Shown here piece after piece: positions 44,841 through 57,300 of a stretch of 64,000 bases of DNA. A program made the position numbers and the translations under genes. The notes beneath the pieces are model-generated. The model was not told where the DNA came from. It made no database searches and saw only the letters and a program-made list of their open reading frames with translations. Numbering within the stretch: the stretch's first letter is position 1; every line of letters starts with the position of its first letter. The stretch is taken from the NCBI RefSeq assembly GCF_022014595.1, contig NZ_CP091740.1, forward strand, positions 4,018,200-4,082,199, in the 5' to 3' direction. This DNA comes from Solitalea lacus (GTDB lineage: Bacteria > Bacteroidota > Bacteroidia > Sphingobacteriales > Sphingobacteriaceae).

Positions 44841-46739
44841 TTATCGCTCCTTTCGAGGAGTAAATGATTCCTTTTTAGCAGGGGCTATGGTTGCTTTTTT
44901 AGGAGCTGCAGGAAGTACTGATGTTTTCTTTTCTCCTTGCTGAATCTGACGGCCATTCTTCTTTTCTGTTGAATCAACAACCGTCTTAACCGCTACCTTA
45001 CGATAAATATCCTCTTTAGAAACCGGACGCTCTTCAACTCGCCAAATAAACCCTTTAAGCTTGTCTTCCCCCTCAGGTATTTTGTCCAAAGGGTGCAATT
45101 TGCCTTCAATATCTTTTTCCATTTTCACCCTGGCAACTTTATTATTCTTAAATGTTAAGGTCATGTTACTACAAAGGGCTCTATTCATTCCGGTATAAGT
45201 AACAGAGTCCTCCTTTGGGTAATAGATACTTTCGCCATTGCCAATAACATTTAAGCGAGTAAGTTTATTGTCATTGAAGAATCCCACCATGTTTTTACCA
45301 CTTATTTGGTTAAACAAAGTAGAATCTCCTTCCGTACCCACCAGAAAAGCTGAAGCATTCATCTTCATCCGGTCAATCTTTTTATTCTTCAGCTCGATAT
45401 CAATTTGATTGGCTGTTATTTGCGAGCCTTGCGTCCACACAGCCGGCGATTTATAACATCGCATAATTGAATCAGAGTAAGTATAAACCAGCGAATCGGC
45501 TACTGCCTGTAAATCTGATTTATACATGCGAACGTTTTTATAGGCATATAATATCCTATAACGGGTAGTATCTTCTTTAACAACCTTTGTTGTATCTGTT
45601 TTCTTCAGCAAGCTATCCGCTACATTCTTTGCCTCATTCGCCCTTTTCAACGTATCAGTTGTTTTACTAACAGGCTTCATAGGCTCCGTGATCCCTGGTC
45701 CCATCGGAGGCATATCATCATCGGCATTAACTTGCTCCTTTTTCTGAATTTTAGTAACAACAGTGGTATCCTTTGAAATTTCACCATTTTTATTAGACTT
45801 TTGCTTCGGATCAGAAAGTGTTGTTTTCAATGTATCAGCCGTTAAAAAGATGGTATCTTTTTCCTGCACAATGGAGAGCAGTGCCCTTTTAGTTACATAA
45901 GCTATTTCAGATGGCTTGTTATACTGACCATATCCTCCGGTTAAGATCACCTTGTCGGCAGTATCAATAAAGTAAACGTTCTTGACGGCTCTTCCATACC
46001 CAGCTCTCCTGTCGTAATACAACGTATCGCCTTTTAAGGTTTTTGATCCTGATTGATAGAAAGAACGTTCGTTAAACTTTGCCTGATCAGTAGAGGTATT
46101 ATACCAGCCATTTTCGGTATATAAATAATCGTCTTTACCTTTAATATGCGTTGGCCCAAAGAAATTGGCAATACGGTTTTGGGTATTGTACTTTATTGTG
46201 TCACTGGTAATTTCGGTCTGAGGTGTATTAATTTTTACATTGTGTCTAAAAAATGCATCTTTTGAACCGACAAAATAATAACCGGTATTGCTCGTCAATA
46301 CATTTTGCTGGTTGGTAATTTTGCCTGAATTCGGATAGGTTCCTATCCTCGTCGCCATATCGTATTGCAGATATTCAGTGGTAAGCACAGCCTTTCCGTC
46401 CGTCAGCGTTACATTTTCAAAAAGTTCGGCTCTACGGGTATTACCATCGTAAATCAGTCGCTTGGCTGTAACGTTGATAGTATCAGCTTGTAAAATGCGT
46501 ACGTTTCCGAAAGCATTTAACCTGTTTTCCTTTTCAAAGTAATCTGCACTATCACAATACATTAATGCATTTTCGTGTCTAAATCGGCAGTTACCTACAA
46601 AGTGAGAAACTCCTTCCTTAATTCTGAATTCAGCATCATCAGAGTTTTCAATTTGAACGCGTGTAGTTTTCTTTTGTGCAAAATTGTTCGTTGCACAAAA
46701 CAAGAATATAATCAGTAGAAATAATATGCGGAATTTCAT
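44841..46739 (-). CDS. OstA-like (LptA/LptD N-terminal type) protein
   Basis: OstA domains form beta-jellyroll bridges that carry lipopolysaccharide across the periplasm. The 632-residue product has a signal peptide (ending NNFAQ) and repeating OstA-type strands: ALMYCDSADYFEKENRLNAFGNVRILQADTINVTAKRLIYDGNTRRAEL and so on over about 20-330, with more repeats at about 400-560. A charged, low-complexity T/K-rich linker divides them (about 330-390) and another ends the protein. ATG 46739 (MKFRILFLL) is preferred, because a -7 box overlaps the longer start at 46763. It lies divergently from tilS. Confidence 0.82.
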   Translation of the reverse strand: MKFRILFLLIIFLFCATNNFAQKKTTRVQIENSDDAEFRIKEGVSHFVGNCRFRHENALMYCDSADYFEKENRLNAFGNVRILQADTINVTAKRLIYDGNTRRAELFENVTLTDGKAVLTTEYLQYDMATRIGTYPNSGKITNQQNVLTSNTGYYFVGSKDAFFRHNVKINTPQTEITSDTIKYNTQNRIANFFGPTHIKGKDDYLYTENGWYNTSTDQAKFNERSFYQSGSKTLKGDTLYYDRRAGYGRAVKNVYFIDTADKVILTGGYGQYNKPSEIAYVTKRALLSIVQEKDTIFLTADTLKTTLSDPKQKSNKNGEISKDTTVVTKIQKKEQVNADDDMPPMGPGITEPMKPVSKTTDTLKRANEAKNVADSLLKKTDTTKVVKEDTTRYRILYAYKNVRMYKSDLQAVADSLVYTYSDSIMRCYKSPAVWTQGSQITANQIDIELKNKKIDRMKMNASAFLVGTEGDSTLFNQISGKNMVGFFNDNKLTRLNVIGNGESIYYPKEDSVTYTGMNRALCSNMTLTFKNNKVARVKMEKDIEGKLHPLDKIPEGEDKLKGFIWRVEERPVSKEDIYRKVAVKTVVDSTEKKNGRQIQQGEKKTSVLPAAPKKATIAPAKKESFTPRKER

Positions 46740-46744
46740 TAGCA

Positions 46745-46752
46745 CAAAAATA
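46745..46752 (-). promoter_or_regulatory. -7 box (TATTTTTG) of the OstA-like gene
   Basis: Exact TAnnTTTG, ending 5 bases before ATG 46739. It lies inside the longer reading frame, which argues for the shorter start and a leaderless mRNA. Confidence 0.5.
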
Positions 46753-46766
46753 GCTTTTTTCACTTA

Positions 46767-46796
46767 TTTGAACGGACCGAGTTTTTCCTATCCTTG
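46767..46796 (+). promoter_or_regulatory. Promoter of tilS
   Basis: TTTG (46767-46770), an 18-base spacer, and TATCCTTG (46789-46796). It is back-to-back with the OstA-like gene promoter. Confidence 0.5.
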
Positions 46797-46879
46797 CTGA
46801 CCAGGCCAAGCAAAAAAAATTGTTCAAACATTTAAGGGAATATTGCTATTGTTTAAATAATCATGTAGGTTTAGCGCCC

Positions 46880-48190
46880 ATGTATAGGTTGTCTGATTAT
46901 TTACTTCCATTTAAAAACTTTATAAGCACCCAAGGCTTATTTGGTCCTTCCGACAGAGTATTACTTGCCGTTAGTGGTGGCGTAGACTCCGTTGTGATGG
47001 CACGCTTATTTGCAGCGGCGCATTTTAATTTCGGGATTGCACACTGCAATTTTCAGTTGCGTGGAGAAGATGCGGAAGCAGATGCAGCATTCGTTTCAGA
47101 ACTTGCGGCTGAACTGGGTGTTGCTTACCACCAGGTTCGACTCAATACTACTGCTTATGCCGAAGAGAAAAAGGTTTCTGTACAGATGGCAGCCCGTGAT
47201 TTGCGTTATAGCTGGTTGCGTAATATTAAAGAAGAATACGGATATAACTGTATTGCTGTAGGACATCATAAAAATGACACAATTGAAACTGTGTTAATTA
47301 ACCTTTTACGCGGCACCGGACTTGCCGGTTTACATGGAATTTTACCCAAAAGAGATGACATTATTCGCCCTTTGCTATTTCTAACCCGTGAAGAAATTGA
47401 AAAAGTAGCCAATCAAAGTGATGTTCATTTCCGTGAAGATGTCACCAACCGCTCTTCCAAATACTTGCGAAACAAATTACGTAATGAGGTTATTCCCATT
47501 TTAAAAGAAATTAACCCGGATTTAGAACACACCTTTTCACAAACAATTGAATATTTAAAGGAGAGCGAAGATTTAGTCAATCTTTACTTGGAAGAAAAGA
47601 AGGATGAATTATTTCAACATCGTAATAACGAAATATTAATCGGTATTGAAAAACTTAAGCAACAAAAGCACTTAAAAGCTTTATTATTTGGCTTACTAAA
47701 ACCATTTGGCTTTGTGGCCAGCACTGTAACCGAAATAATTGATGCTTTAAATGCTCAACCCGGCAAGCAATTTTATTCTTCAACACATAAAGTATTAAAG
47801 GATAGAACCGAACTAATCCTATCAAAAATAACTACGGAGAGTCAAAAGTATACAATTGATGACTTGTTTACTGCACGAGTTGAGAAGAATAAATCATTTG
47901 GGATACCGTTTAGCAGTGCTATTGGCTGCTTTGATTATGATAAATTAACGCTTCCGCTTGAAGTTCGTAACTGGCAGCATGGCGACAGCTTTGTGCCTCT
48001 TGGCATGAAAACCCACAAAAAACTCAGTGACTTCCTTATTGATTTAAAAATACCCTTAAGTGAGAAAGAAAAAGTGAAGGTCGTTTTATCAGGGCGGGAA
48101 ATTATCTGGGTGGCAGGCTACCGGATTAACGACCGCTATAAAATCACCCCTGAGACTAAAAAAATTTATATTTTGGAGTTCAAAAAATAG
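46880..48190 (+). CDS. tilS: tRNA(Ile)-lysidine synthase TilS
   Basis: TilS modifies C34 of the AUA-reading tRNA-Ile to lysidine, an essential step. The PP-loop SGGVDSVVMARLF is near residues 30-42. Further motifs are HCNFQLRGEDAEADAAFV and CIAVGHHKNDTIETVLINLLRGTGLAGL. The C-terminal TilS domains (about 240-436) end in REIIWVAGYRINDRYKIT. The reading frame is open to a TTG at 46820, but MYRLSDYLL at ATG 46880 is the more likely start (436 residues). The gene has its own promoter and is followed directly by a small membrane-protein gene. Confidence 0.95.
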   Translation: MYRLSDYLLPFKNFISTQGLFGPSDRVLLAVSGGVDSVVMARLFAAAHFNFGIAHCNFQLRGEDAEADAAFVSELAAELGVAYHQVRLNTTAYAEEKKVSVQMAARDLRYSWLRNIKEEYGYNCIAVGHHKNDTIETVLINLLRGTGLAGLHGILPKRDDIIRPLLFLTREEIEKVANQSDVHFREDVTNRSSKYLRNKLRNEVIPILKEINPDLEHTFSQTIEYLKESEDLVNLYLEEKKDELFQHRNNEILIGIEKLKQQKHLKALLFGLLKPFGFVASTVTEIIDALNAQPGKQFYSSTHKVLKDRTELILSKITTESQKYTIDDLFTARVEKNKSFGIPFSSAIGCFDYDKLTLPLEVRNWQHGDSFVPLGMKTHKKLSDFLIDLKIPLSEKEKVKVVLSGREIIWVAGYRINDRYKITPETKKIYILEFKK

Positions 48191-48202
48191 GTGTTTATTG
48201 GC

Positions 48203-48685
48203 ATGAAAGAAAAACCAATCTTCGTAGAAAAACAATATTTGGGACTAAATCGTAATTGGCTGCTTACCAGACTTGTACTTGCCATTTTCTGCTTCATTAT
48301 TTACTCCATTGAAGAAAACCGAGACAGAAACGCTGATTTATTATTAGTAGTAGGAGTTTCAATTTTAGTAATTTCCAGCTTGCTAACTTTTATCATTCAT
48401 TATAAAACATCTATTTACGATAAATCACTTGTACTGGATGGCTTTTGGACGACCAGTAGGGTTAAAATTGACTTTGGCAGTATTAAAACTGTTGAAAAAA
48501 CACCTTACAGTAATTTTTTAATGAACAACCCGGTTTACAATCTGCATAAAAAAGGCACCATTCGTTTTTATACACGTGGTAAATATGCCATTAAATTAAC
48601 TGACAACGATGGCCTTATCTATGTAATTGGAAGCCAGCATCCTGATGAAATAGTTCGGCTGATTGCAGAAAGAATAAGATTATAG
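48203..48685 (+). CDS. Two-helix membrane protein with PH-like domain
   Basis: This 160-residue protein has two membrane helices (about 18-36 and 45-65), then a beta-rich segment (VLDGFWTTSRVKIDFGSIKTVEKTPYSNFLMN...GTIRFYTRGKYAIKLTDNDGLIYVIGSQHPDEIVRLI) that looks like a bacterial PH fold. ATG 48203 is chosen over the GTG at 48191 that touches the tilS stop. Function unknown. It resembles in plan, not closely in sequence, the protein at 23448-23960. Confidence 0.7.
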   Translation: MKEKPIFVEKQYLGLNRNWLLTRLVLAIFCFIIYSIEENRDRNADLLLVVGVSILVISSLLTFIIHYKTSIYDKSLVLDGFWTTSRVKIDFGSIKTVEKTPYSNFLMNNPVYNLHKKGTIRFYTRGKYAIKLTDNDGLIYVIGSQHPDEIVRLIAERIRL

Positions 48686-48694
48686 GCACTGACT

Positions 48695-48740
48695 ATGATC
48701 CATTTCCACATCAGTTAACTGTGGATCATTAAATCTTTTT
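48695..48740 (+). terminator. Possible terminator after the tilS operon
   Basis: ATGATCCA (48695-48702) pairs with TGGATCAT (48722-48729), with an alternative inner CCACA/TGTGG pairing, then a short T-run (48736-48740) just before the UbiA gene. Confidence 0.5.
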
Positions 48741-48745
48741 ACCCT

Positions 48746-49618
48746 ATGTCCCTTAAAAACACTATTAAGCTCCTTCGCTTTCCTTTCTCATTCTTTTTAA
48801 TGCCTGTCTTTTTACTTGCATTAAGCCAAGCAAAGCTTATTAATTGGAAAGGGACTATTTTATCCTTCTTAATACTTCATCTATTTATCTACCCTGCAAG
48901 CAATGGATACAACAGCTTTATGGATAAGGATGAAGGAAGCATTGGCGGCCTGAAACATCCTCCCAAGCCAACCCAACAACTTTTTTATGGTTCACTGATC
49001 CTTGATAGTACAGGCCTTCTGCTTTCATTTCTTATTTCTCCTGTGTTCTCTGTTTGTGTTTTACTCTACATTCTGGCTTCACGAGCGTACAGTTACAAAG
49101 GCATTCGGTTAAAGAAATATCCTTACCTGGGCTTTTTGACAGTTGTTATCTTTCAAGGTGGATTTTCTTATCTAATGGCCTATATTGCAGTTACTCATAT
49201 TGAAATTTCGCATATAATAACCACTGAACTTGTGGCTTTAATTGCCTGCAGCACATTAATTGCAGGAGTATATCCCCTTACACAAGTGTATCAGCACGAA
49301 GAGGACATTAAACATGGCGACATCACCATCAGTTATAAACTAGGCTTTAGAGGAACCTTTATTTTTAGCGCTATCCAATTTATTATTACAAATATTCTGT
49401 TTTTCATTTACTTCAACTCGGCACAAAAATTAAATAACTTCATAATCCTGCAATTATTTTTTATTCCGGTTGCAATTTATTTCGTAAGTTGGATAGTGAA
49501 GGTTTGGAACAACCCTTGCAAGGCAGACTTTGAGCATACCATGAAAATGAACCTGACTGCCTCAGTGTGTATGAATGGCTGCTTTATTATTTTAAGCATA
49601 CTAAATCACTTCTTATGA
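48746..49618 (+). CDS. UbiA-family prenyltransferase
   Basis: These membrane enzymes attach an isoprenoid chain to an aromatic acceptor. The 290-residue protein has about eight or nine membrane helices. The first Asp-rich motif reads NGYNSFMDKDEGSIGG (about 53-68), and the second YQHEEDIKHGDITISYKLG (about 188-206), as the family requires. The stop codon overlaps the start of the type III PKS gene (ATGA), so the two are translationally coupled. It is the first gene of a four-gene cluster. Prenylation of the polyketide product is a reasonable inference, not shown. Confidence 0.85.
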   Translation: MSLKNTIKLLRFPFSFFLMPVFLLALSQAKLINWKGTILSFLILHLFIYPASNGYNSFMDKDEGSIGGLKHPPKPTQQLFYGSLILDSTGLLLSFLISPVFSVCVLLYILASRAYSYKGIRLKKYPYLGFLTVVIFQGGFSYLMAYIAVTHIEISHIITTELVALIACSTLIAGVYPLTQVYQHEEDIKHGDITISYKLGFRGTFIFSAIQFIITNILFFIYFNSAQKLNNFIILQLFFIPVAIYFVSWIVKVWNNPCKADFEHTMKMNLTASVCMNGCFIILSILNHFL

Positions 49619-50715
49619 GCATTGTAATTTCAATTGGCACATCAAATCCGGCTTTTAAACACAAACAAGAAGACATTTTGCAGTACATGGTTGATTTACT
49701 GCAACCATCAATGGACGAGCGAAAACTGCTCAGCATCTTATACCAACGGAGTGGAATAAAGCATCGATATTCTGTTTTACCTGAATTTTCAGAACGATAT
49801 GCCAGTCACCATACTTCATTTTTCGATAATGTAGAAGAAGATGCTTCACTGGAGTCTCGAATGAAAATTTACCATAAACATGCCGGTAAATTAGGCCTCG
49901 AATCTGCAACAAAATGCCTGAACGGACGGATAAGTCCACAAGAAATTACACACCTAATAACAGTTAGCTGTACGGGATTATCTGCACCGGGCTTAGACAT
50001 TGAGTTAATGGAACAATTTGGCTTAAACCCAACGATTTATCGTACCTCTGTCAATTTTATGGGCTGCTATGCAGCTTTACATGCATTAAAACAAGCTGAT
50101 TTAATTTGTAAAGCCGACAAGAATGCAAAAGTATTAATTGTTTCAGTTGAAGTTTGCACCATCCATTTTCAACCCAAAATCGACATGGATAATTTAACCG
50201 CCAATCTGTTATTTGCCGATGGGGCAGCCTCTGCGTTGGTTTGTTCGGATGAAATTGCAAATGAGAAAAACTGGAAGGGAATGAAAATAAAAAACAGTTA
50301 TTCTGAGGTTCATTACAACGGAAAAAAAGACATGGCTTGGCAATTGTCTTCTAATGGTTTTTTAATGACCCTTAGCAACTATATCCCGGACTTGGTTGAA
50401 AAAGGCATAAAGAACTTGGTTAACCAAACCTTAAATCTAAGTAACAAAGCAGCCTCAGAAATAAAACATTGGGCCATTCATCCAGGCGGCAAGCGTATTC
50501 TTGAAGTAATTCAAAAGGAACTTGCTCTTGCAACCAGCGACCTTTCATCTGCATTCTCAGTGTTGGAAAATTATGGCAACATGTCCTCTCCCACTGTTCT
50601 GTATGTTTTAAAGGATATTTTAGACAACAAACTTGATATCACCAATGAAGAACTGGTTTTTGCAGCAGGTTTCGGACCAGGCTTAACAATGGAAAGCATG
50701 TTGTTATCTAGTTAG
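49615..50715 (+). CDS. Type III polyketide synthase (chalcone/stilbene synthase family)
   Basis: This 366-residue homodimeric enzyme extends an acyl starter with malonyl-CoA. The triad is complete: C151 in NFMGCYAALHAL, H289 in HWAIHPGGKRILEVI, N322 in LENYGNMSSPTVLYVL; GFGPGLTMESM is the C-terminal loop. The true ATG is at 49615 (MSIVISIGTSNPAF), overlapping the UbiA stop; the frame is open further upstream. Bacterial relatives make alkylresorcinols or alkylpyrones from fatty acyl-CoA, which would fit the methyltransferase and flavin genes that follow. Confidence 0.92.
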   Translation: MSIVISIGTSNPAFKHKQEDILQYMVDLLQPSMDERKLLSILYQRSGIKHRYSVLPEFSERYASHHTSFFDNVEEDASLESRMKIYHKHAGKLGLESATKCLNGRISPQEITHLITVSCTGLSAPGLDIELMEQFGLNPTIYRTSVNFMGCYAALHALKQADLICKADKNAKVLIVSVEVCTIHFQPKIDMDNLTANLLFADGAASALVCSDEIANEKNWKGMKIKNSYSEVHYNGKKDMAWQLSSNGFLMTLSNYIPDLVEKGIKNLVNQTLNLSNKAASEIKHWAIHPGGKRILEVIQKELALATSDLSSAFSVLENYGNMSSPTVLYVLKDILDNKLDITNEELVFAAGFGPGLTMESMLLSS

Positions 50716-50728
50716 CTTACACAAATAA

Positions 50729-51436
50729 ATGCAATTAAACGTACGTTCATACCGTAAGGAATTGCTTGACAGCGGTAATATTCCGTACCATGACCTTGCT
50801 AAAAATTTAAATGAACTTGAAACCATCAACCGTTTTTTAGGAGGGCATTCTATTACCATAAAAGGCCTAAAAAAACTTATTACCAGTAAGGAACCAATAA
50901 CAATTCTTGACCTTGGAAGCGGTGGAGGCGATACGTTACGGGCTATAGCACTTTGGGCTCGCAGCAACAAAGTCGCTGTAAAACTTATCGGCGTTGATCT
51001 AAAAAATGAATGTATTCATTTTGCAGAAAAAAGAAGCATACAGTACCCGGAGATCTCCTTTATACAGTCTGATTTCCGGGATATTGAACTTTTCAATATT
51101 CAACCTGATATTATAATTTCATCATTATTTTGCCATCACCTTACTAATGAGGAAATTATTGATCTTCTAAAATGGATGCTCAAAACTGCCCGTATAGGAT
51201 TTGTCATTAATGACCTTCATCGGCATTACATGGCATATAAAAGTATAGCGTTGATAACTGCATTATTTTCAAAATCATATTTGGTAAAAAATGATGCTAA
51301 ACTATCTGTAGCCCGTGGTTTTTTGAAAAATGAATGGAAGCAATTATTGGCATTGGCCGGAGTTGGAAAACGGCATTTATCATGGAGATGGGCTTTTAGG
51401 CATTTAATTGTGGTAAAAAACAATGATAAAAACTGA
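50729..51436 (+). CDS. SAM-dependent methyltransferase (type III PKS cluster)
   Basis: This 235-residue class I methyltransferase has motif I ILDLGSGGGDTLRAIALWA (about 53-71) and the acidic motif II LIGVDLKNECIHFA. IISSLFCHHLTNEEI matches post-motif segments of O-methyltransferases acting on phenols and quinones. It begins 13 bases after the PKS stop and overlaps the next gene by 14 bases. By position it should methylate the PKS product; the srsB gene of the Streptomyces phenolic-lipid cluster is a parallel from general knowledge. Confidence 0.85.
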   Translation: MQLNVRSYRKELLDSGNIPYHDLAKNLNELETINRFLGGHSITIKGLKKLITSKEPITILDLGSGGGDTLRAIALWARSNKVAVKLIGVDLKNECIHFAEKRSIQYPEISFIQSDFRDIELFNIQPDIIISSLFCHHLTNEEIIDLLKWMLKTARIGFVINDLHRHYMAYKSIALITALFSKSYLVKNDAKLSVARGFLKNEWKQLLALAGVGKRHLSWRWAFRHLIVVKNNDKN

Positions 51437-52559
51437 TTTTGACCTTGCTATTATTGGTGGGGGATTGGCCGGTTTAAGCACCGCAATTCAAATGAACAAA
51501 CTTGGTTATGAAGTTATTTTGTTTGAGAAAGAAACATTTCCATTCCACAAGGTTTGCGGTGAATATATTGCAATGGAATCCTGGGACTTTCTTCAAGGTT
51601 TGGGAGTTCCATTAGAAAACATGCAACTACCTAAAATTACCAGGTTGCATATTTCTGACTGCAGAGGTAAACTCCTGGCACATAAACTTAACCCAGGCGG
51701 ATTTGGAATCAGCAGATATAGCCTTGATAATGAACTTCATCAACTCGCAAAGCAAAGCGGCGTTGTCGTCTACGATAACACAAAAGTTTTAGCCATTGAT
51801 TTTTACCAAGGTAAAAGCGTAATTAAAACTAACTCCGCTACTTTCAATGCTAAAGTCGCCTGTGGATCATGGGGAAAAAGAGCCAATATTGATATAAAGT
51901 TGCGGCGAGAGTTCATTCATCAGCCCCCTAAAAAAAATCAGCATTTTATTGCAGTTAAATATCATGTTAAAACTGATTTTCCAGATGACCTAATAGAGTT
52001 ACACAATTTTGAAAACGGATATTGTGGCATTTCTACAGTTGAGAACAACATGCAATGTTTATGCTACCTTACAACAGCCTACAATTTGCAGCAATGTAAT
52101 AATGATATTAAAAAACTTGAAAAAACTTACCTGGCAAAAAATCCCCACTTGAATCAATACTTCCAGTTCTCCAAATTCATTTTTAATGAGCCATTAGTAA
52201 TTTCACAAATTAGTTTTGCCTCGAAAGAAGCCATTAACGACCACATTTTCATGGTAGGAGATGCTGCTGGAATGATTGCCCCACTTTGTGGCAATGGCAT
52301 GAGCATGGCCTTGCATGGATCAAAACTAGTAGTTCCTATTTTGGATAATTTACTCAAAGGGAATTTGAATCGATTGGATGCAGAGCGACAATACGCTTCG
52401 ATTTGGAAGGCTCAGTTTAATTCCCGTTTACGTACAGGTCGTTGGTTTCAACAATTATTTGGTCGTCCTCTGGTAACAAATACAGCACTTAGAGCATTAA
52501 ATAGTTTTCCTTCATTAACTTCATCCTTAATTGGCCTAACTCATGGAAAACCATTTTAA
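51423..52559 (+). CDS. FAD-dependent oxidoreductase (geranylgeranyl-reductase/hydroxylase type)
   Basis: This 378-residue flavoprotein has the dinucleotide loop AIIGGGLAGLSTAIQMNKLGYEVILFEKE at the N-terminus and FPFHKVCGEYIAMESWDFL typical of the geranylgeranyl-reductase subgroup. FMVGDAAGMIAPLCGNGMSMALHGSKL contains the GD motif that contacts FAD ribitol. It might hydroxylate the phenolic ring (as SrsC does) or reduce a prenyl chain. It overlaps the methyltransferase gene and is the last gene of the cluster. Confidence 0.85.
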   Translation: MIKTDFDLAIIGGGLAGLSTAIQMNKLGYEVILFEKETFPFHKVCGEYIAMESWDFLQGLGVPLENMQLPKITRLHISDCRGKLLAHKLNPGGFGISRYSLDNELHQLAKQSGVVVYDNTKVLAIDFYQGKSVIKTNSATFNAKVACGSWGKRANIDIKLRREFIHQPPKKNQHFIAVKYHVKTDFPDDLIELHNFENGYCGISTVENNMQCLCYLTTAYNLQQCNNDIKKLEKTYLAKNPHLNQYFQFSKFIFNEPLVISQISFASKEAINDHIFMVGDAAGMIAPLCGNGMSMALHGSKLVVPILDNLLKGNLNRLDAERQYASIWKAQFNSRLRTGRWFQQLFGRPLVTNTALRALNSFPSLTSSLIGLTHGKPF

Positions 52560-52562
52560 AAG

Positions 52563-52591
52563 TACAACCCGGAATAATATTCCAGGTTGTA
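52563..52591. terminator. Bidirectional hairpin after the PKS cluster
   Basis: TACAACC (52563-52569) pairs with GGTTGTA (52585-52591) around the inner palindrome GGAATAATATTCC, with one unpaired base each side. It separates convergent genes. Confidence 0.65.
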
Positions 52592-52603
52592 TTAAATTAA
52601 ATT

Positions 52604-54142
52604 TTATACCGTTTCACTCATTACATTCTCTTTAACGTTTGCCTCTATTCCGTTTTTTTCTTTAATGAACAAACAGCCAACTGTAAAACATATTAAAGCA
52701 ACAGTTATCGGATAAATTAAGCCCGCAAAATGGTTTCCGGTTGAATACACCAGCAAAGTAGCAATGGTAGGCAAAATGCCTCCAACTATACCATTACCAA
52801 CGTGATATGGCAAAGACATAGAAGTGTAACGAATACGAGTTGGAAACAGTTCCACCAAAAATGCCGCAATCGGACCGTAAACCATTGTCACAAAAATCAC
52901 CTGAATCAACACCAAAAAAATAAGCCTGATGATATTACCAATACCTAAGGTTACTTCTTTTTTTAACTCCAGATCGGTAGCTGCAGCCGAACCGGGTAAA
53001 GTAATACGAGTTTCTTTTATAACAGTTTCATCATCATAAAACCGGGTTTCAATTGCCTGTCGACCCGACTGTCCATCAGCGCGTTGAACTGTACTGTATT
53101 GAACCTTACGCTTAAAGGCTAACTCTGTTTTTAAATCTGGGTTTACGGTATTATCCATTGTTTTGTAAATAGGATAATAAGCGATGGCTGCTATCAGCAT
53201 ACCTGCCATCATTATCTTTTTACGCCCCAATTTATCGGATAATTTACCGAAGTATATAAAAAAGGGTGTCCCTAATAATAACGCTATTGCAATAATGAGG
53301 TTCGACTGCACGAACTCAACGTTCATGGTTTTTTGCAAGAAAGAAAGAGCATAAAACTGGCCTGTGTACCATACCACTCCCTGTCCCATTGTAGCTCCAA
53401 ACAAAGCCAACATCACCATTTTAAGGTTTTCCTTTTCTCCAAAACTTTCTTTCAATGGATTTTTAGATACCTTGCCTTCAGTTTTAAGTTGAGTAAACAA
53501 TGGTGATTCTTGTAAGCGGATGCGAATATAATAGGACATAATCACCAAAAACACCGACAATAAAAACGGAACTCGCCAACCCCAAGCATTAAAGGATTCT
53601 GGAGATAAGCTCAAACGTGTTAAAAGAATTACACCAAGAGAGAGGAATAAACCTAATGTTGCCGTAGTTTGAATAAAACTGGTATAATATCCCTGTTGAT
53701 TTTGGGGAGAATGCTCTGCTACATAAGTTGCTGCCCCACCATACTCCCCGCCCAGAGCAAGCCCTTGCACCAAACGTAATAACAAAACAATTATTGGTGC
53801 GAAAATTCCTATTTGCTGATAAGAAGGAACCAAACCTATTGCAAAGGTGGATCCTCCCATTAACAGTAGTGTTAGCAAAAAAGTATATTTTCTTCCTACC
53901 AAATCACCAAGGCGACCGAATACTAAAGCTCCAAACGGACGAACAACAAACCCTACAGCAAAAGTGGCGAGGGTAGAAATGTAAGCAAGCGTAGGATTAG
54001 ATGCAGGGAAAAATTTTTCAGCAATGATTAATGATAAACTGCCGAAAATGTAAAAGTCGTACCACTCTATGAGTGTTCCGGCGGAGGAAGCGAAAATAAC
54101 TTCCCAAATTTTGGTTTTTGGTTGATTTGTTTGCATACACAT
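52604..54142 (-). CDS. MHS-family (MFS) metabolite:H+ symporter
   Basis: A 12-helix major-facilitator transporter of the proline/alpha-ketoglutarate/shikimate class. Motifs: SSAGTLIEWYDFYIFGSLSLIIAEKFFP, VRPFGALVFGRLGDLVGRKYTFL, RLVQGLALGGEYGGAATYVAEHSP, and a C-terminal FPTRIRYTSMSLPYHVGNGIVGG. A polar insertion of about 70 residues (DNTVNPDLKTELAFKRKVQYS to LPGSAAATDLELKKEV) sits between helices of the second half. The ATG at 54142 (MCMQTNQPKTKIW) is chosen over 54178. Substrate not known. Confidence 0.88.
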   Translation of the reverse strand: MCMQTNQPKTKIWEVIFASSAGTLIEWYDFYIFGSLSLIIAEKFFPASNPTLAYISTLATFAVGFVVRPFGALVFGRLGDLVGRKYTFLLTLLLMGGSTFAIGLVPSYQQIGIFAPIIVLLLRLVQGLALGGEYGGAATYVAEHSPQNQQGYYTSFIQTTATLGLFLSLGVILLTRLSLSPESFNAWGWRVPFLLSVFLVIMSYYIRIRLQESPLFTQLKTEGKVSKNPLKESFGEKENLKMVMLALFGATMGQGVVWYTGQFYALSFLQKTMNVEFVQSNLIIAIALLLGTPFFIYFGKLSDKLGRKKIMMAGMLIAAIAYYPIYKTMDNTVNPDLKTELAFKRKVQYSTVQRADGQSGRQAIETRFYDDETVIKETRITLPGSAAATDLELKKEVTLGIGNIIRLIFLVLIQVIFVTMVYGPIAAFLVELFPTRIRYTSMSLPYHVGNGIVGGILPTIATLLVYSTGNHFAGLIYPITVALICFTVGCLFIKEKNGIEANVKENVMSETV

Positions 54143-54243
54143 AAAATTGAAAGTCAAAAAGATAGAGAAAATTCCCAAACATAACCTACACTAGCAAAAC
54201 TTTCTTATTTATTAACTCCCAATCCTGTATGCATATCTTTTTA

Positions 54244-54270
54244 CAAAAAAAGCGGCCCTACGACCGCCTT
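54244..54270 (-). terminator. Terminator of the pyruvate carboxylase gene
   Basis: A short G/C stem (GCGG 54252-54255 with CCGC 54264-54267) followed on the minus strand by seven Ts. Confidence 0.6.
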
Positions 54271-54303
54271 TCCCAAACTATTGATAAAAATTAAAAAGCT
54301 ATT

Positions 54304-57300
54304 CTAAGCAATTTCTAACACCAAGTCATCGGTATTGACCAATGTTCCGGAAGTTAAAATAAGATCGCCTACCGTAAAATCATGTGAAGCTGTAATGTTA
54401 GTTTCCATTTTCATGGCTTCAACTACAAACAATGGCTGGTTCTTTTTCACTTTATCTCCTGATTTTACAAATATTTTCGAAAGCATGCCTTGTAATGGTG
54501 CCCCAATATGATTGCCGTTTGATTTATCGATCTTCCTGTTTTCTTGTTTCAGTACTTTAATCGATTTATCCAGCACCTCTATATTACGGGTTTGCCCATT
54601 CAATTTGAAGAACACAGTACGCATACCATTTTCATCAGCAGGACTGATACTTAGCAATCGAACCAGCAAAGTCTTGCCAGGGGCAATTTCAATGGTGGTT
54701 TCTTCACCCAGTTTCATTCCGTACAAGAAATATTTGGTAGGGATAGTTGAAACATCCCCATATTCTTTCCAGAATTTCACCCCGTCTTCAAAAACTTTAG
54801 GGTAGAATTTATATGATAAGAAATCTGTGAACTGTAATTCTGCACCAAACTCTTTCTTAAATTCTTCAAATTCGTTAGTGAAGTTGATTGACGGCAAATG
54901 CTTATTCGGACGATCATTATAAGGTTCCTTATCTTTCAGCACAATTTTCTGCAGTTGAAGCGGAAATCCTCCTGCCGGCTGACCAATTTCCCCTTGGAAG
55001 AATTGAATTACTGACTCAGGGAATGAAATGGTTTCACCTTTAGTAAGCACATCCTCTTTGGTAAGATTATTAGAAACCATGAACTGTGCCATGTCGCCCA
55101 CCACCTTAGAACTTGGCGTTACCTTCACAATATCACCAAACAACTCATTCACTTCTGCATAGCGTTCCTTAATCAATTCAAAACGCTCGCCAAGACCCAG
55201 CGCAATGGCCTGGCCTTTTAGGTTCGAATACTGTCCTCCTGGAATTTCGTGTTGAAACACCTCTGCAGAACTAGCTTTCATCCCCGATTCGAATGGATAG
55301 TAATACTCCCGAACAGCTTCCCAGTATGTTGAATGCTGATTCAACGATTTGATATCATAAGGGTTTTCACGCTCGTGGAAACGCATCATCTCCACCACAG
55401 CGTTAAAGTTAGGTTGAGAAGTTAAGCCTGATAATGCTCCTAAAGCACAGTCCACAACATCAACCCCGGCTTCAATAGCTTTCAAATAAGTAGCAGGTTG
55501 CAGCGAAGAAGTATCATGCGTATGCAAGTGAATTGGAATTTTAACGGTTTCCTTCAACGCACCAACCAACTCTGAAGCGGCATACGGCTTCAACAAGCCT
55601 GACATATCTTTAATTGCCAAAATATGTGCTCCGGCATTTTCAAGATCTTTGGCTAATTGAAGATAATAATTAAGTGTGTATTTGGTTTTCTTCGGATCGA
55701 GGATATCACCTGTGTAACATAATGCTCCTTCGGCAATACCTCCGGTACGCTTACGAACCATTTCAATACATGGAGCAATATTTTCCATCCAGTTCAACGA
55801 ATCGAAAATGCGGAAGATATCAACACCTTTTTCCCAAGATTTTTCTACAAAGCTTTCAATTAAATTGTCAGGATATGCCGAATATCCAACTCCGTTACAA
55901 CCACGGATAAGCATTTGTAACAAGATATTGGGAACTGCGGCACGTAACAATTCAAGGCGTTTCCATGGATCTTCGCGTAGAAAACGGATACAAACATCGA
56001 AAGTTGCACCTCCCCACACTTCCATTGAAAATGTTTGTGGATGCGTTTTGGCAAATGCTTCAGCAACTCTTAGCATATCATAGGTACGCATGCGCGTAGC
56101 CAATAACGACTGGTGACCGTCACGAAACGTAGTATCCGTATATTGAATTTTCTTCTCGTTCTTTAACCATTCTGCAAACTTTTCAGGTCCCAGTTCGGTC
56201 AATAAGTCTTTGGTCCCCTTTGGATAGGGAACAGCTGGATCGAAAGTCGGAATAATCGGCTTATCAAAACGAGCATTAGGATTCACCTTAGTCACGTCAG
56301 GATTTCCATTTATAGCCACATCAGCCAAAAACTTTAATATCCTTGTACCCCTGTCGAGGCGGGTTTTAAAGTTGAACAGTTCAGGATGTTCCTGAATAAA
56401 ACCAACGGTAGCTTTTCCCTGAACGAATTCAGGAACCGAAATCAAATTCTCAAGGAACTGAATATTATTTTTCACCCCACGAATACGGAACTCGCGAAGT
56501 GCACGATGCATCTTTTTAGAAGCATCATTTAAATCATTACCCCAGGTACTCACCTTAACCAGCATCGAATCAAAAAACGGACTGATTTTCATCCCCGGAT
56601 AAGTAGACCCCTCATCCAAACGAACACCAAAACCAGTTGCGTTTCGGTAGGTAATTAACGTACCATAATCCGGCTTGAAGCCATTTGCAGGATCTTCTGT
56701 GGTAATACGGCATTGCATTGCCACTCCGTTGCACTTGATTTTACTTTGATCACCCAAGCCAATCTCAGGGTCGGTAAGTTTATAACCATCAGCAACATAT
56801 AACTGCGTTTTAATAATATCAACTCCCGTAACCATTTCGGTAACGGTGTGCTCTACCTGTACGCGTGGATTTACTTCAATGAAATAGATGTTTTCTTGTC
56901 CATCAACCAAAAACTCAACTGTACCAACATTATTGTAATTTACTGTTGAGCATATACGGATAGCGTATTCATATAGCTTATCACGAGTTTCCTTCTTTAA
57001 TCCCACTGAAGGAGCAACCTCTACTACCTTTTGAAAACGGCGTTGTACTGAACAATCACGTTCAAACAAATGACGGATGTTTCCAAAGCTATCTGCAACA
57101 ATCTGAATCTCTATATGTTTCGGATTCTCAATAAACTTCTCAAGAAAGACAGTATCATCGCCGAAAGCATTTTTTGCTTCACTTTTTGCTTCGCGAAAAC
57201 CTTTTTCCAATTCCTCATCATTGCGAATTACACGCATACCACGACCACCACCTCCGGCAGCAGCTTTTAACATCAACGGATAACCAATTCGGTTTGCTTC

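Follow-up and report, generated by a model that had tools for sequence, protein, structure and literature searches.

A conserved type III polyketide synthase operon of Bacteroidia with an unusual UbiA-fold protein, predicted to make a prenylated phenolic lipid

We analysed a stretch of 64,000 nucleotides from Solitalea lacus (contig NZ_CP091740.1, positions 4,018,200 to 4,082,199 of the forward strand; hereafter the window), in which four genes at positions 48746-52559 encode a protein of the UbiA fold, a type III polyketide synthase (PKS), a class I S-adenosylmethionine (SAM)-dependent methyltransferase and a flavin adenine dinucleotide (FAD)-dependent oxidoreductase. This operon is real, conserved and, as far as we have searched, uncharacterised, and in Bacteroidia a UbiA step has joined a PKS-methyltransferase-FAD core that is found in several phyla. 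Judging from protein families and conserved residues, we consider it reasonably probable that the product of the operon is a phenolic lipid bearing both methyl and prenyl groups. An earlier note on the same DNA had predicted a cluster of this kind, a polyketide core with methylating, flavin-dependent and prenylating enzymes, and that logic is upheld by the protein families, all of which score over their Pfam cut-offs.

Four genes in a conserved order

All four genes lie on the forward strand. The gene for the UbiA-fold protein (48746-49618; 290 amino acids; PF01040) overlaps that of the type III PKS (49615-50715; 366 amino acids; PF00195 and PF02797) by the four bases of an ATGA junction. A gap of 13 bases separates the PKS gene from that of the methyltransferase (50729-51436; 235 amino acids; PF13649; NF004851/PRK06202-like), which in turn shares 14 bases with the gene for the FAD-dependent oxidoreductase, a member of the geranylgeranyl-reductase/hydroxylase superfamily (51423-52559; 378 amino acids; PF01266 and PF01494). 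The coordinates of the open reading frames (ORFs) agree with the overlaps and gap described earlier, and the four genes are one tight unit.

The earlier note had proposed a survey of gene-order conservation as a check on the cluster. Scanning named genomes by profile gave at least 585 relatives of the PKS, the best 80 of which were kept, a set that leans to close relatives; the nearest named ones are from Solitalea longa (77% identity) and Solitalea agri (75%). The order UbiA, PKS, methyltransferase, FAD on one strand was found in 67 of these 80 related loci, and in 69 all three partners lay at most 5 kb from the PKS gene. Because both the set and its order recur at this frequency, we conclude that the gene set is not a product of chance.

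Another way to view the association is through co-occurrence in a sample of 295 genomes of the class, where a PKS was called window-type at 199 bits or more and a UbiA at 190 bits or more. A PKS match was present in 76 genomes, window-type in 54 and more distant (26-33% identity) in the other 22, and window-type UbiA was present in 55. Both proteins occurred together in 53 genomes, the PKS by itself in 1, the UbiA by itself in 2 and neither in 239 (Fisher p 6e-55, phylogeny not corrected); two incomplete genomes with UbiA and no window-type PKS (G228, G283) were counted in this test, and one genome (G052) carries a window-type PKS with a split UbiA. Conversely, 21 of the 22 genomes with a distant PKS only are missing window-type UbiA, the exception being G283. 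As a partial control for kinship, the same comparison was made within families: in four of them (f1, f2, f5 and f68) UbiA is found with window-type PKS and is absent where the PKS is distant only, and a fifth (f45) follows this pattern save again for G283. Weaker UbiA-like matches occur without a PKS match in five genomes (G010, G038, G063, G112, G144). In some genomes the pair is not linked, with UbiA and PKS about 336 kb (G158), 720 kb (G188) or 575 kb (G638) apart, or on separate contigs (G058, G242). The persistence of these unlinked pairs argues for one pathway rather than a single transferred block.

The polyketide core

The PKS scores 100.9 bits against PF00195 and 81.2 bits against PF02797 (gathering cut-off 27 each), and no other protein encoded in the host genome, a single contig of 4.40 Mb, matches PF00195 at E 0.001. 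The catalytic triad, which had been described as complete, is Cys151-His289-Asn322 and is invariant in two alignments of orthologues (18/18 and 21/21). The predicted structure has a predicted local distance difference test score (pLDDT) of 90.3, and its best 50 listed fold matches are all type III PKSs (Z 45.9-49.0). Triad, thiolase fold and Pfam matches together place the protein among the type III PKSs. Residues T120, A124 and C181 align with positions 144, 148 and 205 of Pks18, by equivalences counted by hand on the printed alignment; they are identical to the Pks18 residues there and invariant in the same 18/18 and 21/21 orthologues. We take these Pks18 positions to line a long acyl tunnel, and a C205F mutant of Pks18 exists as a solved structure. 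Thus, the Pks18-like residues favour a long acyl starter for the operon PKS.

The methyltransferase scores 42.6 bits against PF13649 (cut-off 27) and 134.3 bits against PRK06202, below the cut-off of 243, and conserves G63-x-G65-x-G67. The flavoenzyme exceeds the Pfam cut-offs for PF01266 (45.0 bits, cut-off 27.9) and PF01494 (35.5 bits, cut-off 22) and conserves GxGxxG and GD motifs. Flavin-dependent halogenation was considered and rejected for it: despite matches to halogenases in the PDB (best 45.2 bits), the WxWxI motif, presumably the mark of flavin-dependent halogenases, occurs in none of 88 FAD proteins.

The same three proteins can be followed beyond the UbiA-containing loci. In the class sample, homologues of the FAD protein and the methyltransferase stand beside the distant PKSs in 3 of 4 examined loci (L048, L050 and L051, with FAD homologue scores of 288, 282 and 210 bits); at the fourth (L049) phmmer found neither homologue. 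These distant PKSs represent at least two lineages, L049 being set apart from the others in the tree, and the closest solved relative of the L050 PKS is the mycobacterial Pks11. The three loci with both neighbours are candidate polyketide-quinone operons of Bacteroidota in their own right. Outside the phylum, PKS, methyltransferase and FAD neighbours occur without an annotated UbiA on plasmids of Psychrobacter, Methylobacterium, Paludisphaera and Deinococcus, where the methyltransferases score 124-168 bits and the FAD proteins 31-92 bits against our profiles. At L138 and L139, homologues of all three core proteins are encoded on the same strand, and so they are at L137, where the FAD match is weak; in the Psychrobacter locus (L136) the FAD and methyltransferase genes are adjacent to each other on the strand opposite to the PKS. 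Since the methyltransferase and flavoenzyme are kept beside PKSs that have no UbiA, we conclude that both belong to the polyketide core and that UbiA was added to it.

In a PKS tree (a quick method under LG+G4, without bootstrap and with nine rows of odd composition), the window-type PKSs form a single group, in which the PKS of the Psychrobacter plasmid is also nested; the rows labelled UbiA-linked include two loci (L095, L114) whose retrieved DNA shows no UbiA. The nested PKS is encoded on plasmid 5 of Psychrobacter urativorans (L136, 5995-8818), beside FAD and methyltransferase genes and without UbiA. Its position inside a Bacteroidota group makes transfer between phyla likely, and the direction suggested is out of Bacteroidota, with no UbiA accompanying the PKS on that plasmid. 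Searching plasmids with the window UbiA gave no match, and searching them with the UbiA of a Streptomyces locus (L140, see below) returned only that protein itself.

An unusual UbiA-fold protein

The first protein of the operon belongs to the UbiA superfamily by both profile and fold. It scores 65.2 bits against PF01040 (cut-off 34.2), its predicted structure has a pLDDT of 94.4, and the best solved matches to the model are UbiA homologues with dimethylallyl diphosphate (DMAPP) or geranyl diphosphate (GPP) and Mg2+ (Z 24.3 and 23.8), at 16-17% identity and, for the best match, a root-mean-square deviation of 3.2 with 272 residues aligned. It had been taken for a UbiA prenyltransferase; the fold stands, but the protein is unusual in that both Asp-rich motifs are altered in all 85 UbiA ORFs aligned (84 distinct). 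Motif 1 reads N56-S57-x-x-D60-x-D62 in place of NDxxDxxxD, and motif 2 reads Q183-x-x-x-D187, D187 being retained in the alignment to 4od4 with Q183 at the first Asp. Lacking the canonical pair of Asp motifs, the protein is filed here as UbiA-fold only. Residues N56, S57, D60, D62, Q183 and D187 are each invariant in the 85 ORFs, H184 is present in 79, and R121 and K123 are invariant in 27 of 27 sequences. The protein thus combines a UbiA fold with an altered, strongly constrained metal site, and prenyl transfer is its most likely predicted activity.

The host genome has two homologues of prenyl diphosphate synthase. It also encodes a further UbiA-like polyprenyltransferase, which exceeds the TIGR01475 cut-off (286 vs 180.8 bits), so the operon UbiA need not be the housekeeping enzyme. 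MqnP models match this same polyprenyltransferase with scores below their cut-offs. Together with a haem O synthase over its cut-off, it led us to reject a housekeeping role in menaquinone or haem synthesis for the operon protein. Identity with EboC/UbiA-297 was likewise rejected, since the EboC model gave no match to the operon UbiA at E 0.01 and belongs to a different cluster. UbiA-297/EboC of Flavobacteria resembles the present case in being a Bacteroidota prenyltransferase with the UbiA fold, encoded in a conserved cluster, and is reported to farnesylate quinolines; it differs in lying in the ebo cluster and in carrying a DXXDXXXD motif (PMC9235831).

Relation to known systems

At family level, all four functions of agq-type clusters are present in the operon. 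The agq cluster of Actinoplanes missouriensis makes 6-alkyl-4-O-dihydrogeranyl-2-methoxyhydroquinones, the product of the type III PKS AgqA being prenylated and hydroxylated (Awakawa et al. 2011, as reported in papers citing it). That cluster is actinobacterial, and our comparison was made not with the Agq sequences but with a Streptomyces stand-in, an agq-like set of UbiA, PKS, ICMT-type methyltransferase and FAD genes on a 1.6-Mb plasmid of Streptomyces sp. NBC_01237 (L140, 5013-8606). Grouping its PKS with the UbiA-linked PKSs of Bacteroidota lowered the log-likelihood by 285 (approximately unbiased test, p 2.5e-126), and common PKS descent with the actinobacterial UbiA-linked enzyme, as represented by this stand-in, was rejected. 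Its methyltransferase belongs to the ICMT family and that of the operon is soluble class I, and the Bacteroidota UbiA profile misses its UbiA at E up to 10. With a separate PKS, a different methyltransferase family and an undetected UbiA, the sequences indicate that the Bacteroidota set is probably not an agq orthologue, and type III PKS and UbiA have most likely been brought together at least twice. In 11 kb around a Nonomuraea PKS resembling that of the stand-in (L141), the UbiA, FAD and methyltransferase profiles drew a blank, although the UbiA profile is one that misses the Streptomyces UbiA too, so that the blank has no bearing on UbiA linkage at this locus. The Nonomuraea record (NZ_LT559118.1, 11.85 Mb) is filed as a plasmid, and its size looks like that of a chromosome.

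The operon had also been likened to the srs genes of Streptomyces griseus, which provide PKS, methyltransferase and hydroxylase functions for alkylquinones. By function, the level at which the srs genes were compared, the two sets correspond. The core is nevertheless closer to the three-gene hid and Planctomycetota type than to the actinobacterial one: its soluble class I methyltransferase has homologues there, whereas that of the Streptomyces stand-in is of the ICMT family, as is, we assume, SrsB. Both hidABC (hierridin, Cyanobium) and the Planctomycetota operon are described as holding PKS, methyltransferase and oxidoreductase in one operon (PMC10896814, PMC8086630), which, like the PkQ type, is the content of the core described here. 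The Planctomycetota plasmid locus L139 has homologues of the three core proteins without an annotated adjacent UbiA. The Planctomycetota PKSs are reported to yield penta- and heptadecylresorcinols in C. glutamicum, and when the methyltransferase and oxidoreductase of Gimesia were added, the product gained a single methyl group, probably at a carbon (PMC10896814). In a cyanobacterial survey, one of the hierridin-like clusters, from Raphidiopsis, includes a prenyltransferase (PMC8086630). The PkQ operons of Mycobacterium smegmatis and Streptomyces sp. MNU77 also combine PKS, methyltransferase and oxidoreductase, and make alkyl benzoquinones reported to be alternate respiratory electron carriers; the descriptions available mention no UbiA (PMC9927152). 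In the loseolamycin cluster of Micromonospora endolithica a UbiA family prenyltransferase, a methyltransferase and a type III PKS lie close together, but this cluster is actinobacterial and, in the text available, the PKS neighbour is annotated as an acyl-CoA dehydrogenase (PMC7587189).

Flanking features

Of 94 loci (93 distinct), 11 have a YceI-like gene no more than 2 kb away from the operon (L032, L042, L047, L054, L055, L056, L094, L099, L123, L129 and L131), against about 1.2 expected, an expectation derived from the seven copies in the S. lacus genome. YceI proteins are known to bind isoprenoids, and the neighbouring one might carry or bind the lipid that the operon makes. Other recurrent flanking genes, named CoA-binding protein, YkuK-like, EngB-like and MenG-like after their sequences, look like local synteny of the Chitinophagaceae and were set aside.

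Within the window, a small gene at 48191-48685, whose product is probably membrane-bound, lies directly upstream and is absent from the recurrent operon neighbours. Between it and the operon an inverted repeat with a T-rich stretch behind it (48695-48729, forward strand) has an RNA fold of -10.2 kcal/mol (z -1.95, weak against shuffles) and is possibly the terminator of that upstream gene. A strong inverted repeat at 52561-52593 (-15.8 and -17.4 kcal/mol on the two strands, z -5.6 and -6.1) sits between the operon and a convergent gene of the major facilitator superfamily type (52604-54178), and is likely a two-way terminator. A consensus terminator scan picked up neither hairpin, and consensus promoter and terminator matches were fewer than the shuffle means.

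Discussion

If the operon acts as proposed, the PKS would load a long fatty acyl starter, add about three malonyl units and close the ring, giving an alkylresorcinol or alkylresorcylic acid, as its fold, triad and acyl-tunnel residues suggest. The class I methyltransferase would then methylate the ring on carbon or oxygen, the FAD enzyme may hydroxylate it to a hydroquinone that could be oxidised to the benzoquinone, and the UbiA-type membrane enzyme would use a prenyl diphosphate to place an isoprenyl group on a ring carbon or oxygen. Such a product, whether a phenolic lipid or a redox quinone, would probably reside in the membrane.

Several observations weigh against this prediction. In 11 of the 80 related loci, one or more of the three partners are not seen (several of these loci are partly cut by contig ends); the methyltransferase is the sole partner in four (L069, L081, L092, L114), one has no partner (L095) and one is without the methyltransferase (L072). 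The exceptional genome G283, which is 61% complete, holds UbiA with only a distant PKS match. In family f84, where UbiA of this subfamily is divergent, PKS and UbiA are not significantly associated (both 67, UbiA only 2, PKS only 15, neither 3; p 0.058, with one genome, G649, of weak PKS match scored as having none), and three sequences from that family (L179, L180, L181) are related N-S-x-x-D-x-D UbiAs unlinked to a PKS, two of them (L179, L181) near a gene that we take to be lycopene-cyclase-like. The flavoenzyme is below all NCBIfam cut-offs among its best 25 of 103 matches. In the UbiA protein, the complete absence of canonical NDxxDxxxD from the 85 ORFs makes the donor, and even the activity, uncertain, and the replacement of the first Asp of motif 2 by Q183 in all of them points the same way. 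Finally, the loci with YceI neighbours are phylogenetically non-independent, and none of the YceI genes of S. lacus lies near the operon.

The altered Asp-rich motifs bear most directly on whether a prenyl group is transferred at all. They fit an operon that makes a prenyl-free polyketide lipid or quinone, with the UbiA-fold protein transferring some other group or binding lipid, as does position 64, the equivalent of the last Asp of motif 1, which varies and is Asp in just 3 of the 85 ORFs. However, the invariance of N56, D60, D62 and D187, and of R121 and K123, implies a polar catalytic pocket under selection, and the top fold matches carry a bound prenyl diphosphate; we regard a prenyl-free product as unlikely, and prenylation of the ring as the better account of this protein. 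Accepting prenylation, the FAD enzyme might still act on the chain instead of the ring, as a reductase of the geranylgeranyl type that yields a saturated prenyl group. TIGR02032, the geranylgeranyl reductase family, is its best NCBIfam match, and the agq product is described as bearing a dihydrogeranyl group; yet the score (100.8 bits) lies below the curated cut-off for membership (158.8 bits), and homologues of the FAD protein adjoin UbiA-less PKSs strongly in the class and more weakly in other phyla. Because FAD and methyltransferase genes are found together at such loci, a ring hydroxylase or oxidase is the more likely prediction, and we hold chain reduction to be rather improbable.

The nature of the ring itself could also differ. 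Resorcinol and pyrone cyclisation are not distinguishable from the PKS sequence, and the close solved relatives include two mycobacterial enzymes that are known pyrone makers: Pks18, matched by sequence, and Pks11, matched by fold at Z 49.0 under a title that names alkylpyrone synthesis. That the PKS yields alkylpyrones or another polyketide ring, on which the tailoring enzymes act, nonetheless seems to us quite unlikely, given that PKSs from the Planctomycetota methyltransferase-FAD operons gave alkylresorcinols in C. glutamicum in the part of the study available (PMC10896814) and that a flavin hydroxylase and a UbiA would suit a phenol better. A DpgA-like 3,5-dihydroxyphenylacetyl-CoA synthase operon is suggested by the best NCBIfam match of the PKS, but at 145.2 bits this falls so far below the cut-off of 425 that we rejected a DpgA function; no gene of the dpgB-D type was recognised among the ORFs of 46000-56000, where no model search for them was made, and such an operon is very improbable. 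A prenylated, methylated phenol thus remains our preferred prediction.

The earlier note had further claimed that no compound is assigned to this gene set in the phylum. We found no assigned product in the Bacteroidota literature that we searched, which was a partial cover with most subscription journals outside it, but the novelty is of the set in this phylum, as the agq functions already have a described product elsewhere. Type III PKS clusters of Bacteroidota have been counted by antiSMASH surveys without, in the parts of these reports available, a product (PMC7440613, PMC10752948, PMC7477175).

The window-type PKS occurs in about one in five to six of the species sampled, so whatever the operon makes is widespread. 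A lipid or quinone of this kind has so far been characterised in actinobacteria; if our prediction is true, the operon would indicate that prenylated type III polyketides arose a second time, and would reveal a UbiA subfamily that has an unusual active site. Bacteroidota are taken to respire with menaquinone. A bolder and doubtful reading, which we offer tentatively, is that many of them make a second membrane quinone, a polyketide benzoquinone with an isoprenoid chain whose origin is apart from that of the actinobacterial agq product; that a UbiA-fold enzyme attaches this chain, using a metal-binding motif of its own, is equally tentative. One survey of quinones annotates the ubiquinone, rhodoquinone, plastoquinone and menaquinone pathways, and polyketides go unmentioned in its available text (PMC13386864). 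Thus, if the product is a prenylated quinone, Bacteroidota would hold a lipid of redox or envelope function that surveys of quinones by gene content could overlook, and a second membrane quinone would merge the polyketide quinones with the isoprenoid quinones.

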